Assembly: GCA_012797975.1 (NCBI GenBank)
Contig: JAAZOD010000035.1
Location: 1 to 38,361 of the forward strand
Source of the DNA: Pelolinea sp.
Lineage (GTDB): Bacteria > Chloroflexota > Anaerolineae > Anaerolineales > Anaerolineaceae
Direction of reading: 5' to 3'
DNA: 38,361 bases
Below the pieces are notes generated by a model. The model was not told where the DNA came from. It made no database searches and worked only from the letters and a program-made list of their open reading frames with translations. Shown here piece by piece: positions 17,124 through 24,551 of this stretch; position 1 is the first letter of the stretch, and every line of letters begins with the position of its first letter. The position numbers were made by a program, and so were the translations under genes.

Positions 17124-17615
17124 TTATTCGGATAGAAATTTCTCCACATCCGCGATGAAACACAGAGTGTTTTCTTCTATTGTTCTTGTCAGCGCATCCA
17201 GGTCGCCAAAATCAGGATCAACCACCAGGATATGCTCCAGAATGGAATCCTTTCCCTCCGTGGTGGGCACCAGGTGATCGCAGTTCCATCCGCTGTCTTT
17301 GAACAGCCGCCAGTACTCCGCCTGGGTTTGTTTATTATACCCACCCAACCATACTTCGAAGCGAAAGGCATCATAGTTGAAAACAACCGCAATCTTTAGT
17401 TTTCGATCTTTGAGCGCTTGAGGGGTGAAAGAAAAATAGGTCATGTCCATATATCCGCAATAGATGCTGCCGGATACAAAATAATTGGGGTATTTGTTCT
17501 TGAAGTATGTCTTCAAGTTCATGATGAAATCCATCAAGCCGCGGTACGCTTGCTGGACCGTTCCCTGTTTTAACAATTCTTTGAATTCCTGCATGTTTTC
17601 TTGAAATGAGCTCAT
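17124..17615 (-). CDS. Conserved hypothetical protein (DUF7000-like)
   Basis: A 163-residue soluble protein with GGAG seven bases before ATG. It contains GTVQQAYRGLMDFIMNLKTYF, then FVSGSIYCGYMDMTYFSFTP, then FRFEVWLGGYNKQTQAEYW. From memory this resembles a conserved Firmicutes/Chloroflexota family annotated DUF7000; I cannot confirm the label. The alpha/beta pattern with a central FRFEVWL strand recalls nuclease-like or DUF-type adaptor folds, but no catalytic motif can be claimed. It is monocistronic. Confidence 0.72.
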   Translation of the reverse strand: MSSFQENMQEFKELLKQGTVQQAYRGLMDFIMNLKTYFKNKYPNYFVSGSIYCGYMDMTYFSFTPQALKDRKLKIAVVFNYDAFRFEVWLGGYNKQTQAEYWRLFKDSGWNCDHLVPTTEGKDSILEHILVVDPDFGDLDALTRTIEENTLCFIADVEKFLSE

Positions 17616-19676: not shown

Positions 19677-20081
19677 TTAGCTCATTCGTAAAACCGGCCT
19701 GAACTTATACCCGTAGATTAACATTCCCCTTTCATCCCCATCCTGGCGGATGCGGCGGGTGACCATCTCCACCGGTGTGCCGATCTTCACTTCACGCTCG
19801 CCCACATCGGTGAGCTGGGCGGTGATGATGGGGCCTTCATCCAGCTTCACCAGTGCCACCGTGTAAGGAGCATTTTCCTCAAAACCGGCCGGCACGCTGT
19901 GCAAGGTGGTGAAGGAATATACCTCCCCTTTTCCACTGAACTTGAAAGCGGTCTTGGCTTCCCCGCCGCATTCGGGGCATACGTCGCGCGCGGGGAAGAT
20001 CTTGGCTTGGCAGTGCGGGCATACCTCACCCACCAGGGCAAGGCGCTGTTTTTGTAATCTCCAATGTCGCGGTATTTCCAT
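19677..20081 (-). CDS. DUF35 Zn-ribbon/OB-fold acyl-CoA-associated protein
   Basis: A 134-residue protein. Its N-terminal rubredoxin-like zinc ribbon has C21-x2-C24 and C35-x2-C38. An OB-fold follows (about 48-134), with GKGEVYSFTTLHS and the C-terminal YGYKFRPVL. In archaea the homologous protein bridges acetoacetyl-CoA thiolase and HMG-CoA synthase in one complex and channels the CoA intermediate. In actinobacterial steroid degradation, DUF35 domains partner thiolase-fold aldolases. It is the last gene of the operon, 84 bp after the thiolase-fold gene, with GAAGGAG ten bases before ATG. It is expected to bind the thiolase-fold protein and perhaps HMG-CoA synthase. Confidence 0.92.
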   Translation of the reverse strand: MEIPRHWRLQKQRLALVGEVCPHCQAKIFPARDVCPECGGEAKTAFKFSGKGEVYSFTTLHSVPAGFEENAPYTVALVKLDEGPIITAQLTDVGEREVKIGTPVEMVTRRIRQDGDERGMLIYGYKFRPVLRMS

Positions 20082-20165
20082 TCGTACTCACTCCTTCATA
20101 AGAGTGAAACAAGTGTACAGATGGAATCCTCTCAAAACCTATCAGATTCTGGATTGGAAGAAGAC

Positions 20166-21317
20166 TCACATTTTTCGCAAAATATGGGTGATGACGCTGG
20201 CTGCCGCGCCGCTGATCGCCTGCGTCATGGCCACCTGCGCGCTGGCGATTTGGTTCCGCCCGGCTTCTCCGCGCAATTGCTGAACCGCATCCAGCACCTG
20301 ATACGCACCCGCCGCACCGGGGGCAAAGCCATGTGCCTTGATGCCGCCCAATGTGGCAACGGGCAGCCGGCCAGTCAATGCCAGATTGTCCAGGGTGGCA
20401 AACTGCCAGCCCCTGCCGCGTTCAGCAAACCCACCCGCTTCCAGGGATAACATCCCGTAGATGGAGGGGGTATCCCAACACTCGAAGAGATCCAGACAAT
20501 CACGCGTAAGTTTCGCTTTTTCCAGTGCCTTGGTGGTGCTGATGTGCACCGCATCGAACGCCAGCGGGTCAGCCCGGTCGTGAACCGCCAGGGTATCGGT
20601 GGCGATCTCTGACGCACTGATTAACACTGCTTTCTGCCCATCCCGCAGCAGCTTCCGGTTCACCAGCACCAGGGCTGCAGCCCCATCGGCAAAAGTGGGC
20701 ACATCATACAGAGAAAGTGGAACGCTCACCATGGGGGCTTTTCCATAACTATCCAAATCGACGTTCTTTCGATACATAGCAAAAGGATTGTTCACTCCAT
20801 TGGCGTGCGCCGTGATCGGAAAACTGGCAAAGCTCTCGCACGGGGCATGGTATTGGTCAAGGTAGCGCTGCATGAGCAGTCCAGCCATGCCATTGGGGGT
20901 TAGCCCCTGCATTCCCTCAAAATCAGTATCGCCGCTCTGCGCAGCAAACGCTTCGATCTCATCACCGACCATATCGGTCATCTTTTCCAAGCCCACCACC
21001 ACCACACAATCCGCCATGTTTGAGGTGATGGCCAGATAGCCCATGTGCAGTGCGGCAGCGCCCGATGCTTCCCCTGCTTCGACAGTGGTACCTTCCAATC
21101 CATGCAGTCCGGCAGCATCACACACCAGCGCCCCCAGATTGGCTTGATGGGAAATGGAGGAAGCCAAAAAATTGCCGATATACACGATCTCCGGCTGGGG
21201 ATCACCGGCATCCTTCAATGCCGCGCGGATAGCTTTGCTGCTGAGAGCAGCCAGTGATTGATCCCAATGCTCCCCCACCGCCACCTGTCCGATGCCTGTG
21301 ATATACACCTTTTCCAT
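20166..21317 (-). CDS. Thiolase-fold protein lacking thiolase catalytic residues
   Basis: A 383-residue protein colinear with archaeal/SCP-x-type thiolases from VYITGIGQVAVG to the C-terminus. All catalytic motifs are changed. The nucleophile motif, normally EAACASG, reads EAGEASG, with Glu83 at the Cys position. The HDxF motif reads FECW (278-281). GHPxGATG reads GFAPGAAG (330-337). The C-terminal HNxGG or CxHxxGG loop reads TQAISG. The fold-defining stretches (SGAAALHMGY, FADGAAALVLVN and GGIKAHG) remain, so the gene is not decaying. It starts seven bases after the HMG-CoA synthase stop. By context it should complex with synthase and DUF35. It is either a scaffold or an enzyme with different chemistry, such as a retro-aldolase; acetoacetyl-CoA thiolase activity is unlikely. 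Confidence 0.9.
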   Translation of the reverse strand: MEKVYITGIGQVAVGEHWDQSLAALSSKAIRAALKDAGDPQPEIVYIGNFLASSISHQANLGALVCDAAGLHGLEGTTVEAGEASGAAALHMGYLAITSNMADCVVVVGLEKMTDMVGDEIEAFAAQSGDTDFEGMQGLTPNGMAGLLMQRYLDQYHAPCESFASFPITAHANGVNNPFAMYRKNVDLDSYGKAPMVSVPLSLYDVPTFADGAAALVLVNRKLLRDGQKAVLISASEIATDTLAVHDRADPLAFDAVHISTTKALEKAKLTRDCLDLFECWDTPSIYGMLSLEAGGFAERGRGWQFATLDNLALTGRLPVATLGGIKAHGFAPGAAGAYQVLDAVQQLRGEAGRNQIASAQVAMTQAISGAAASVITHILRKM

Positions 21318-21324
21318 AACTGAC

Positions 21325-22395
21325 CTACTTCATCACGATCTTGCCGCGGTAGCGCGCGTAGGTGGCATAATCGATCTCAATACGCCGTTCAATATATTGC
21401 TGAGTGAGGGGGGCCTTGTTACGCCGTTCTTCGATCAGGTCGGTCACGCGCATGTCAAAGGCATCCGAACCGGCGCCTGAGCCATACGAAACCACCAGAA
21501 TACGATCGCCCGGTTTGGCGATATCCAGCACAGCAGTCAGCCCCACCAGCGATGCTCCGGCATAGGTATTGCCGATAACGGGAGAAAGCAGACCGGTTTC
21601 GATCTGTTCCTTACTGAAACCAAGTTCCCTGGCGACCCGCTGGGGAAACTTGGTATTGGGCTGATGAAAGACTGCAAAAGCATAATCGGCAGCCGTCGTG
21701 CCAAGCTGGCTGAGCATGGTCTGTGCCGCTGCAGTGACGTGTTTGAAATAGGCCGGTTCCCCCGTGAAACGCTGCCCGTGTTCCGGATAGACCTGATGCT
21801 GGCGGCGCCAGAAGTCGGGGGTATCGGTCACATAAGAATAGGATGCAGCGATGGTTGCCAGAGCATTTTCAGCCGGACCGATAACGAAGGCCGCTCCACC
21901 AGCGGCAGCGGTGAACTCGAGCGCATCACCCGGTTTGCCCTGTGCGGTATCCGCCCCAATGGCCAGCGCATAATCACCCATTTTCGATCCGACCAATGCC
22001 ATGGCTGCCACCACCGCTTCCGTTCCGGCTTTGCAGGCAAACTCCAGGTCCGCCGCCTGTATATGCTCCGAAGCGCCGATCGCTTCAGCCACAACCGTGG
22101 AACTGGGTTTCACCACGTACGGATGCGACTCGGAACCGACCCACACCGCGCGTAATTTCTGCGCATCGATCCCAGCGCGTGCCAGTGCGTTGCGGGCTGC
22201 TTCAATGGAAATGGTGATGGTATCTTCGTCCAAACCCGGCACCGCTTTTTCTTTGACCGGTGCACCGCCTTCATCGCCTGCCCAGATGCGCAGGATCTCA
22301 CTGGCCGGCAGGCGGTATTGCGGAATATACACTCCATAACCAACAATGCCCACTGCCCGGGCTGGTTTTAATAATAAATTTTCCCTATCGTTCAC
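21325..22395 (-). CDS. Archaeal-type hydroxymethylglutaryl-CoA synthase
   Basis: A 356-residue HMG-CoA synthase, condensing acetyl-CoA with acetoacetyl-CoA. Archaeal-type features are [10 protein letters not shown] (19-28), [17 protein letters not shown] with the catalytic acid, [12 protein letters not shown] with nucleophile C121, FHQPN with H244, and [10 protein letters not shown] near the end. All catalytic residues are present. I place the start at GTG 22395: GGAG lies seven bases upstream and GTGA overlaps the reductase stop by four bases. An ATG four codons upstream has no ribosome site. Together with the reductase it should make mevalonate; the remaining mevalonate genes are outside the window. 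Confidence 0.93.
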
Positions 22396-23669
22396 TGTTC
22401 GCTCCATTCGTTCAAAATCGCGATCGCACGATCGATGCGGATATTTCCTTCATTCACAAGCTGCTCTGCCAGCGCCGCCACCTTTTCAGGCGGTGCACCG
22501 GCTGCCGCCGCCACCTGCCGGGCATGCAGCGCCATGTGCCCGCGTTGGATGCCTTCGGTGGCCAACGCCCTCAACGCCCCCAGATTTTGTGCCAACCCGA
22601 CCGAAACGATGATCTCCGCCAGGTCGGATGCCTTTTGAACATTCATTAATTTCAAGACAGCCCGTGCCGTAGGATGAACACGGGTCGCTCCGCCCACAAT
22701 CCCGACCGCCATGGGCATCTCCAGTTCACCCCGTAAAGCACCTTTTTCATCCACCGACCAAGTGCTCAAGCTGGTATAGCTTCCATTGCGCGCCGCATAA
22801 GCATGCGCCCCGGCCTCCACCGCCCGCCAGTCATTCCCGCTGGCGATCACCACCGCGTCCACGCCATTCATGATGCCTTTGTTGTGGGTGGCCGCGCGAT
22901 ACGGATCGGCCGCGGCAAATGCCCAAGCTTCGATGATGCGATCGCGCACCTCCGTGCCGCCAAACTGATCGAAAGCCAGCGCTTCGGCCGGAATCGTGCA
23001 GGTGGCCCTTACCAGGCGTCGATCTGCCAGATTGGAAAGGATGCGCAGCAGCACTCTGCCGCCAGTGATCTTTTCCACCAGCGGGCTGATGCGCTCCAGG
23101 GCAGTGTTCACCGCATTGGCGCCCATGGCATCGCGCACATCCAGGATCAGATGCAGCACCAGAAAACTTCCAATGGCTGAATCAGCAATGACGCGCACCT
23201 GCACATCCTTCGGTCCGCCACCCATCCTTGCCAGCACGGGGTCGGTTTGTGCAGCCAGGTCCATGATCTCCGCCTTGGCACTGCGCAACGCTTTTTCCGC
23301 TGCCGCGCTATCGCTCACATCCAGAATCTGAAGCTGGCCGATCATCTCCTGCGCTCCGGCTTTTGCTGTAAAGCCACCACCCGCCTGGGCTAATTTGGCC
23401 ATGAATGAAGCCGCCGCCACCACCGAGGGTTCTTCCACTGCCATCGGCACCAGCACCGGTCGTCCGTTGACCACAAAATGTTGGGCAATGCCCAGCGGCA
23501 AACCAAAGACGCCGATTCCATTTTCGATCATCAGGTCCGCCTGCGCAGTGGATAAACCACCCTGTGGGTCAAAGACCGTCAGCTCTTCTTTGGTTAAATC
23601 CGAATTCGCCTGCAAGTGCTGCAGGCGTTCAGCAAGATCCATCTGGTAAAACTTCTTTTCATCCGGCAT
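22392..23669 (-). CDS. mvaA: Class II hydroxymethylglutaryl-CoA reductase
   Basis: A 425-residue HMG-CoA reductase of the soluble bacterial class II type, the family's normal length. Signature segments are [12 protein letters not shown] (49-60), [13 protein letters not shown] with the catalytic Glu (79 or 80), [18 protein letters not shown] with K264, GND with D280, and [10 protein letters not shown] with H378. There is no membrane anchor. It reduces HMG-CoA to mevalonate, or runs in reverse in mevalonate catabolism. As first gene of the four-gene operon it overlaps the synthase by four bases. Cofactor preference (NADH or NADPH) cannot be stated safely. Confidence 0.95.
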
Positions 23670-23745: not shown

Positions 23746-24432
23746 TCACACCAGGGAATAGGTTTCACCGGGCTGCAGAATGATCACAACGCTGTCCGTT
23801 TTTTCCTCCACCATGCTCTTCCATGCTGCTGCGTCCTGCTGGATGAGCGGAAAGGTATTGTAGTGCATGGGAATGACCACCTTGGGATGGACGAATTCCA
23901 CGGCACGCAAGGCGTCTGCCGGGCCCATGGTGAAATTATCGCCGATGGGCAGCAGGGCAAGATCCACCCCTTCTTCGCCGATCAAGCGCATGTCGCCAAA
24001 CAACCCGGTATCGCCGGCAAAATACAGCTTCTCTTGATCAGGCAGCGTCAGTAAGAATCCGGCCGGGTTGCCCCCGTCCGACCCATCGGGCAGTTGAGAG
24101 CCATGCAGCGCTAGCGTGAGTTTGCAGTAGCCGAACGGGTAGCGAAAGCCGCCGCCGATATGCTGGCCGTGCGCCTTCACACCCTGCTCACGCAGCCAGT
24201 CGGCGATCTCCGCCACGCTGATCACGGTCGCTCCGGTGCGCTTGGCGATCTTCACCGTATCCCCCAGGTGATCTCCGTGTCCATGGCTCACCAGAATATA
24301 ATCCGCCCGTACTTCATCTGCCCTCACACTGGCGGAAGGGTTCCCGCTGAAAAATGGATCGAAAAGCAGATGCAAAGCATCCACCTGCAGTCCAAAACTG
24401 GCATGCCCGTAAAAGGTAAGGTTTATCGCCAT
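23746..24432 (-). CDS. UPF0173 metal-dependent hydrolase (UlaG-like metallo-beta-lactamase fold)
   Basis: A 228-residue protein. ATG 24432 follows GGAGGACAG; a TTG four codons upstream overlaps that site. The metallo-beta-lactamase motif is H50-G-H52-G-D54-H55, with later ligands in GDTGLFGDM (Asp) and PMHYNTFP (His). This matches the UPF0173 group related to UlaG. The substrate is unknown. It lies upstream of the HMG-CoA operon on the same strand with a 76-bp gap, so co-transcription is possible but unproven. Confidence 0.9.
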   Translation of the reverse strand: MAINLTFYGHASFGLQVDALHLLFDPFFSGNPSASVRADEVRADYILVSHGHGDHLGDTVKIAKRTGATVISVAEIADWLREQGVKAHGQHIGGGFRYPFGYCKLTLALHGSQLPDGSDGGNPAGFLLTLPDQEKLYFAGDTGLFGDMRLIGEEGVDLALLPIGDNFTMGPADALRAVEFVHPKVVIPMHYNTFPLIQQDAAAWKSMVEEKTDSVVIILQPGETYSLV

Positions 24433-24551
24433 TCTGTCCTCCAAAAATTCATTCTTTCTTTATATTTTAATGAGGAAGTTTGATTATTCCATAGATTGCG
24501 GGTTAACATATACAATAAAAGAGTCCAATCATTTAATTCAAGGAGTGAATC

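Follow-up and report, generated by a model that had tools for sequence, protein, structure and literature searches.

A putative pseudothiolase encoded beside HMG-CoA synthase in mevalonate operons of Chloroflexota

The window, a stretch of 38,361 nucleotides from Pelolinea sp. (Chloroflexota; contig JAAZOD010000035.1), carries on its minus strand a cluster of four genes:

22392..23669, minus strand: HMG-CoA reductase (HMGR); TIGR00532 over cut-off, PF00368
21325..22407, minus strand: HMG-CoA synthase (HMGS) of archaeal type; TIGR00748 at 545.7 bits, over cut-off
20166..21317, minus strand: putative pseudothiolase, an intact reading frame of 383 amino acids with a thiolase fold; PF00108 and PF22691
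19677..20081, minus strand: DUF35 protein (zinc ribbon and OB fold); PF01796 and PF12172, two CxxC pairs

Read along the minus strand, the order is HMGR, HMGS, thiolase, DUF35. HMGR and HMGS overlap by 16 nt, 7 nt separate HMGS from the thiolase gene, and a further 84 nt precede the DUF35 gene, whose product carries domains of the DUF35/ChsH2 type. HMGS, thiolase, and DUF35 genes are found together both here (19677-22407) and at many related loci. The thiolase-fold protein exceeds the Pfam cut-offs for Thiolase_N (PF00108, 55.6 bits) and Thiolase_C_1 (PF22691, 109.9 bits); all 19 NCBIfam models that match it stay below cut-off, the closest being PRK06064 and AcCoTHIOL_METTL, and its best sequence matches in the PDB are 7yvy (6.9e-74) and 6esq. 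The protein belongs to the thiolase superfamily and, within it, to the archaeal HMGS-linked subfamily. Two other minus-strand genes were noted in the window: a metallo-beta-lactamase-fold metal-dependent hydrolase (PRK00685, over cut-off) at 23746-24444, just upstream of HMGR, and a DUF7000 protein (PF22526, 198.9 bits) at 17124-17615. Scans of the window for promoters (3 sites, with 4.0 expected by chance) and terminators (12 found, with 6.7 expected) were not used.

Alignment of the window protein with the archaeal thiolases 6esq and 7yvy placed the three catalytic motifs as follows, the last two coordinates being obtained by codon numbering from 21317:

21069..21071, minus strand: codon 83, GAA (Glu), aligned with the catalytic Cys
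20466..20477, minus strand: codons 281-284, W-D-T-P, counterpart of HDxF
20322..20330, minus strand: codons 330-332, G-F-A, counterpart of GHP

Glu83, within VEAGEASG, aligns with the Cys of VEAACASG and IEAACASG in 6esq and 7yvy. The His of HDxF is replaced by Trp281, with Asp282 retained, as it is in all 105 of the Cys-less operon copies compared, and the His of GHP is replaced by Phe331. None of the residues that mark an active thiolase of the archaeal or SCP-x type (the nucleophilic Cys, the HDxF His, and the GHP His) is present in the window protein. The preliminary description had reported Glu for Cys at 21069-21071 and GFA for GHP at 330-332, both in agreement with the alignment. It had also recognized that the HDxF His is gone, but had read the motif as FECW (278-281), three residues away from the WDTP (281-284) found here.

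An AlphaFold2 monomer model, computed from an input alignment of 20 proteins, reached a mean pLDDT of 92.8 and a pTM of 0.93. Foldseek, ranked by E value, returned 7yvy first and then 6esq_A (TM 0.96 by query length, rmsd 1.6), while VIA-align placed 6esq_A at the top (Z 60.6, rmsd 1.4, 381 residues), followed by 7yvy_B (Z 57.2) and by Sal (9myr, 48.5) and Ltp2 (6ok1, 47.9). By both Z and TM, the best match is the thiolase subunit of the archaeal thiolase/HMGCS/DUF35 complex; a shared fold, here a predicted one, does not by itself prove a function.

To survey operon thiolases, distinct proteins of at least 330 amino acids were collected that are encoded downstream of a same-strand HMGS reading frame, within 2.5 kb. 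This gave 174 proteins, the window copy excluded; counts over the set carry no weighting for relatedness, and it over-represents the window's family and class. The Cys is kept in 50 of the 174 (one of which, L325, comes from a PhlABC-like cluster) and absent from the other 124, where the site holds Gly (61), Asp (29), Glu (26), Gln (3), Ser (2), Asn (2), or Ala (1). The preliminary description had asked whether all Chloroflexota operons of this type carry Glu, and they do not, as Glu occurs in 26 of 174. The HDxF His is lost from 0 of 50 Cys-bearing copies compared with 59 of 124 Cys-less copies, and the GHP His from 3 of 50 compared with 117 of 124. Both His residues are retained in 7 of the 124 Cys-less copies, which, to judge by these residues, might have kept some chemistry. 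When copies were counted without sorting, stand-alone thiolases kept the Cys in 64/76, the HDxF His in 76/76, and the GHP His in 74/76, compared with 40/145, 97/145, and 45/145 for operon copies (window included), a loss of residues in the operon copies that is beyond chance.

For position-by-position comparison, copies were sorted by the Cys into Cys-less operon, Cys-bearing operon, and intact stand-alone sets (the last sorted also by both His residues); perfect conservation of the sorting letters within these sets therefore proves nothing, and in the two operon sets the His counts alone are free evidence. Among the 40 Cys-bearing operon copies, the HDxF His is present in 40 and the GHP His in 38. 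A C-terminal HN/CxH loop, TQAISG in the window protein, had been listed in the preliminary description as one more lost catalytic element. It is no evidence of loss, because intact relatives mostly read QNIGG there and also have neither His nor Cys: Gln366 occurs in 40/40 Cys-bearing operon copies and 63/64 intact stand-alone copies (the remaining one has His), and Asn367, which is Ala in the window, varies in Cys-bearing operon copies as well (Asn in 32 and Ser in 8 of 40). Takeover of the active site by another conserved Cys, part of the Cys/His pair that the preliminary description had named as evidence against its claim, was considered and rejected: at none of the positions of the window protein's five Cys residues (66, 104, 160, 274, and 280) do more than 4 of 105 Cys-less copies have Cys.

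Archaeal-type HMGS scored over cut-off in 263 of 298 genomes of the window's class. With the window HMGS as query (E<=1e-60), 42 of 201 genomes drawn from the phylum matched, so many members of the phylum are without this type of synthase. Eighteen of the 42 lie outside the class; all 18 have an operon thiolase, and its Cys site is Gly in 18/18. Cys-bearing operons are common within the class (for example, L019, L090, L098, L296, and L319). The 80 loci with organism names fall in Chloroflexota/Anaerolineae groups, save two MAGs labelled Bacteroidetes and Acidobacteria, and include the cultured Leptolinea tardivitalis YMTK-2 and Longilinea arvoryzae KOME-1. The Leptolinea operon copy (L209) reads EAAGASG, VCDAF, and GNP at the three motifs. 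In the genome taken as that of Longilinea arvoryzae (G323), the operon copy (L058) has Glu, Trp, and Phe like the window, and a second thiolase copy is intact (L277, L368).

Of 189 distinct HMGS proteins, 188 keep the Glu, Cys, and His, and the window HMGS has E93, C125, and H248, which we take to be its catalytic residues. The catalytic Cys and Glu of HMGS are named in PMC6392133. HMGS adjoins 29/29 operon copies of the window's family (L037-L065). At nine loci, from five f40 genomes, two f48 genomes, and one genome each of f22 and f50 (G127, G107, G170, G117, G154, G206, G236, G222, and G212), no thiolase lies beside HMGS; an archaeal-type thiolase is present elsewhere in 13/13 genomes (these nine and four further ones), and in three f48 genomes it is Cys-less. 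Loci L331-L335 (f40), L336, and L337 hold HMGR and HMGS, with no thiolase or DUF35 gene within the 12-18 kb examined, and the five f40 genomes have an intact thiolase with DUF35 elsewhere (L344-L346, L348, L349). A separate arrangement was seen at L325 (G030:C1:1277962-1278942 and its neighbor), where an HMGS-like protein with Asn and Ala for the catalytic Glu and Cys lies beside an intact thiolase (Cys, HD, GHP). This arrangement resembles PhlABC, and in the same genome an HMGS of archaeal type neighbors a Cys-bearing thiolase (L307) as well.

A thiolase tree of 108 rows (IQ-TREE quick; 376 of 460 columns, catalytic columns omitted) required at least five Cys-state changes among operon copies and at least seven over all copies, which we read as losses because the archaeal outgroup 6esq bears the Cys. 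A clade of 55 rows (SH-aLRT 96), all Cys-less, brings the window copy together with its family and order and with f70/f80 lineages from beyond the class; further Cys-less operon rows (L007, L084, L103, and L023 with L085) sit amid Cys-bearing ones. Deep branching order is unsure, as many inner branches are weak (40/105 open). Mapped onto a tree of HMGS from 59 class genomes, the Cys state changes at least four times.

Other thiolases are encoded in the window genome, namely, an intact archaeal-type enzyme at C20:91744-92877 (40% identical; Cys, HDAF, GHP) and a canonical TIGR01930 thiolase at C12. A canonical thiolase was found in 30/30 genomes tested; thus, supply of acetoacetyl-CoA need not depend on the operon copy. 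HMGS itself looks needed, since DXR was not found in 13/13 genomes tested, and a match to mevalonate diphosphate decarboxylase was present in 12 of 13, with 10 over cut-off, the window's included. Seven same-family genomes are without both the operon thiolase and HMGS. This joint absence was rejected as support: the seven are also without DXR, and five of them have a same-genus genome with the operon copy, which makes missing contigs likelier. In G318, G304, G317, and G348, of the same family or genus, a stand-alone thiolase (intact in G318, G304, and G348) was found with neither HMGS nor DXR, pointing to an assembly gap or to scavenging of isoprenoid precursors. Other departures at the Cys were seen outside the operon. 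A thiolase of the window genome (G000) at C11:59947-61125 (L107), as well as L169 and L170, has Pro at the Cys place (ENGPASG) with HD and GHP kept, and the stand-alone thiolases L161-L167 and L354 have a RAATATG-like motif, with Thr for Cys and HDAF and GHP kept. From their motifs, the latter look like another Cys-less group with a different history.

Within the window's family, 58 of 61 genomes match the window thiolase at E<=1e-40, most of them twice. The stand-alone second copies belong to the same subfamily and keep Cys, HD, and GHP in 35/35 same-family genomes examined (15 + 20, out of about 55 second copies in the family, window genome included), and they are intact in 13/13 same-order genomes. 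One reading, which we regard as rather unlikely, is that this intact copy joins the same complex in mixed dimers or tetramers with the pseudothiolase, a dead/live arrangement analogous to the KS/chain-length-factor pairs of type II polyketide synthases. Class genomes outside the family (59 used of 67 searched, the other 8 having no readable operon copy) lend it some support, as an intact second copy accompanied the operon copy in 20 of 35 genomes where the latter is Cys-less but in 1 of 24 where it bears the Cys (Fisher p 1.9e-5). The association is clade-bound, however, and phylogenetically independent pairs (HMGS tree, mean of 200 pairings) gave 0.2 in the same direction, 0.3 in the opposite direction, and 2.5 with no difference. 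They support neither mixed assembly nor the candidate explanation that Cys loss follows gain of an intact second copy, for which no causal claim is made. An intact archaeal-type second copy was not found (E<=1e-60) in 15 of the 35 genomes with a Cys-less operon copy, three f48 genomes have a Cys-less copy only (E<=1e-30), and in the 15 regions examined (~10-15 kb each) the second copies stand apart from HMGS and DUF35. In a mirror-tree analysis of 24 genomes, the operon copy tracked HMGS (partial r 0.59) and the stand-alone copy did not (0.07); within the window's family alone, the result was reversed (0.10 versus 0.50), in favor of mixed assembly. Being mixed by family, the mirror-tree signal was dropped as support.

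Across the 105 Cys-less operon copies, the HDxF His site lies at the 74th percentile of variability, the GHP His site at the 65th, and the Cys site at the 66th. Such varied replacements at three catalytic sites are as expected if catalysis was released. The neighboring E279, D282, G325, and G330 are conserved in 105/105, and 48 positions are conserved in all three sets, E279, D282, G324, G325, K327, R329, and G330 among them. Conservation of H171, H378, E279, and D282 in Cys-less copies, along with the 7 of 124 that retain both catalytic His residues, could suggest that a minor non-thiolase activity on acyl-CoA (e.g., CoA-thioester hydrolysis or decarboxylation) has been kept or gained through residues such as these four. 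We consider this improbable: intact thiolases conserve the four to about the same degree, which makes a new activity unnecessary to explain them, and 61 of 124 Cys-less copies have Gly at the Cys site.

The preliminary description had also proposed a lyase acting on a beta-hydroxyacyl-CoA, and a site repurposed in this way, as an aldolase of the Ltp2/Sal type or another lyase with a DUF35 partner, would share the fold (Z 47.9 for 6ok1 and 48.5 for 9myr against the model) and the partnership. The position of the Ltp2/Sal Tyr is nevertheless Trp in the window protein and Tyr in only 5 of 105 Cys-less copies. Of the polar positions conserved in more than 85% of Cys-less copies, all but S56 and T140 match the majority letter of intact copies; these two letters, like Tyr191 (83/105 Cys-less, 14/40 Cys-bearing operon, and 40/76 stand-alone copies), are found in some intact copies as well. 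Profile searches recognized no hydratase in the window gene cluster, which is a mevalonate operon. With neither a substitute catalytic residue nor a new acid/base residue fixed among these copies, the aldolase proposal is set aside as very improbable.

Selective constraint was estimated from one genome pair, the window and its nearest relative G326 (84% identical), with dN/dS of 0.077 for the thiolase, 0.061 for HMGS, 0.025 for DUF35, and 0.046 for HMGR (141 available codons); these values are rough because dS is near or above 1 (1.36 for the thiolase). In the lineages sampled, both inside the class and beyond it, frames of ~380 codons remain open, and among the 67 class genomes searched, two matches had one internal stop. 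The reading as an assembly artefact, or as a neutral remnant about to disappear, would fit the greater divergence of operon thiolases (mean identity 0.58, versus 0.70 for HMGS and 0.70 for the second copy; 55 pairs, 11 same-family genomes) but is hardly credible against that dN/dS (one pair) and frames left open across lineages, also in the cultured Leptolinea tardivitalis YMTK-2. Lost catalytic residues, an open frame, and purifying selection, the last from one pair, are together the attributes of a pseudoenzyme, and all are seen in the predicted protein.

Overall, we conclude, with a probability of about 0.68, that the window protein is a pseudothiolase: it descends from an acetoacetyl-CoA thiolase subunit and is retained in a structural role, as a subunit of HMGS that performs no catalysis. 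An archaeal-type thiolase subunit of the thiolase/HMGCS/DUF35 complex would have lost thiolase chemistry along with its residues, would still assemble with HMGS and DUF35, and would complete the shared CoA site of the HMGS complex. Acetoacetyl-CoA would arrive from outside, made by the stand-alone archaeal-type thiolase (C20:91744-92877) or by the canonical one (C12). In the archaeal complex, CoA is bound at the interface of thiolase, HMGCS, and DUF35, as stated in PMC6392133. A CoA site formed by all three proteins is a reason to keep a dead partner, and by analogy the pseudothiolase is probably the CoA-site partner of HMGS. The HMGS loci that have no adjoining thiolase count against it as a needed partner. 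The preliminary description had judged that this is not simple decay, which agrees with the low dN/dS (one pair), the predicted intact fold, and the conserved gene order. Its suggestion of a scaffold for the synthase fits best with these data and with the drift at the catalytic sites.

The archaeal thiolase-HMGS channel pulls the unfavorable condensation of acetyl-CoA forward. A wider proposal, offered as doubtful, is that many Chloroflexota with archaeal-type HMGS have uncoupled this channel. The dead thiolase would then be a gating or CoA-sensing subunit that admits free acetoacetyl-CoA to the fused site and tunes HMGS, and the thiolase reaction would have moved to separate enzymes, at least five times in all, once at the base of a clade spanning the window's class and outside lineages.

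What is new is a predicted pseudothiolase form of the known complex, wider than first noted (124/174 operon copies). No earlier account of an inactive thiolase in this operon was seen in the titles and abstract beginnings searched; priority is not established. PMC11052028 and PMC13001223 mention mevalonate pathways in Chloroflexota and, in their available portions, contain nothing on an inactive thiolase. In these operons, nature has repeatedly experimented with a known channelling complex. Should many lineages indeed be keeping a dead thiolase subunit, the complex has a structural role apart from channelling, which is testable with proteins of the cultured Longilinea arvoryzae and Leptolinea tardivitalis. 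For pathway reconstructions, the similarity-based name acetyl-CoA acetyltransferase would be misleading for these genes.

Among known systems, the archaeal thiolase/HMGCS/DUF35 complex (6ESQ) is alike in having the same three families in one cluster, in providing the best structural match through its thiolase subunit, and in the kept catalytic residues of HMGS. It differs in that the window thiolase is without the Cys, the HDxF His, and the GHP His. A thiolase subunit with catalytic residues that feeds HMGS is not found in the window, and from the absent residues we infer that hand-over from thiolase to HMGS within the complex cannot start from acetyl-CoA. The Pyrococcus furiosus thiolase PFC_04095 (7YVY), the best PDB sequence match, has the Cys, HDAF, and GHP, and the thiolase-like ST0096 of Sulfolobus tokodaii (4YZO) has, by alignment, Ser at the Cys position and keeps HD and GHP. 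The steroid aldolases Ltp2-ChsH2(DUF35) and Sal-Shy(DUF35) (6OK1, 9MYR) share the thiolase fold, a DUF35 partner, and the absence of thiolase chemistry. According to PMC12329534, they carry Tyr at the HDxF His position (YDHF/YDCY), with replacement sites at Tyr294/Tyr344 in TcLtp2 and Tyr302/Cys304 in CtSal. The Cys-less operon copies differ from them in having no such site fixed. In Ltp2/Sal, the DUF35 partner is part of a hydratase; in the window, a DUF35 gene (19677-20081) adjoins the thiolase gene and stands alone, with no hydratase domain. PhlABC (PpATase, 5M3K), a Friedel-Crafts acyltransferase of Pseudomonas protegens, has a very similar three-part make-up in which one of two thiolase-superfamily subunits is dead, as described in PMC6392133, where assembly is thought to require that HMGS-like subunit. 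PhlABC is the mirror image of the window operon: its dead subunit is the HMGS-like PhlA (Gly115, Cys83) and its active one the thiolase-like PhlC, whereas in the window HMGS retains its residues and the thiolase does not, a pairing useful for the origin of pseudoenzyme subunits in the thiolase superfamily.
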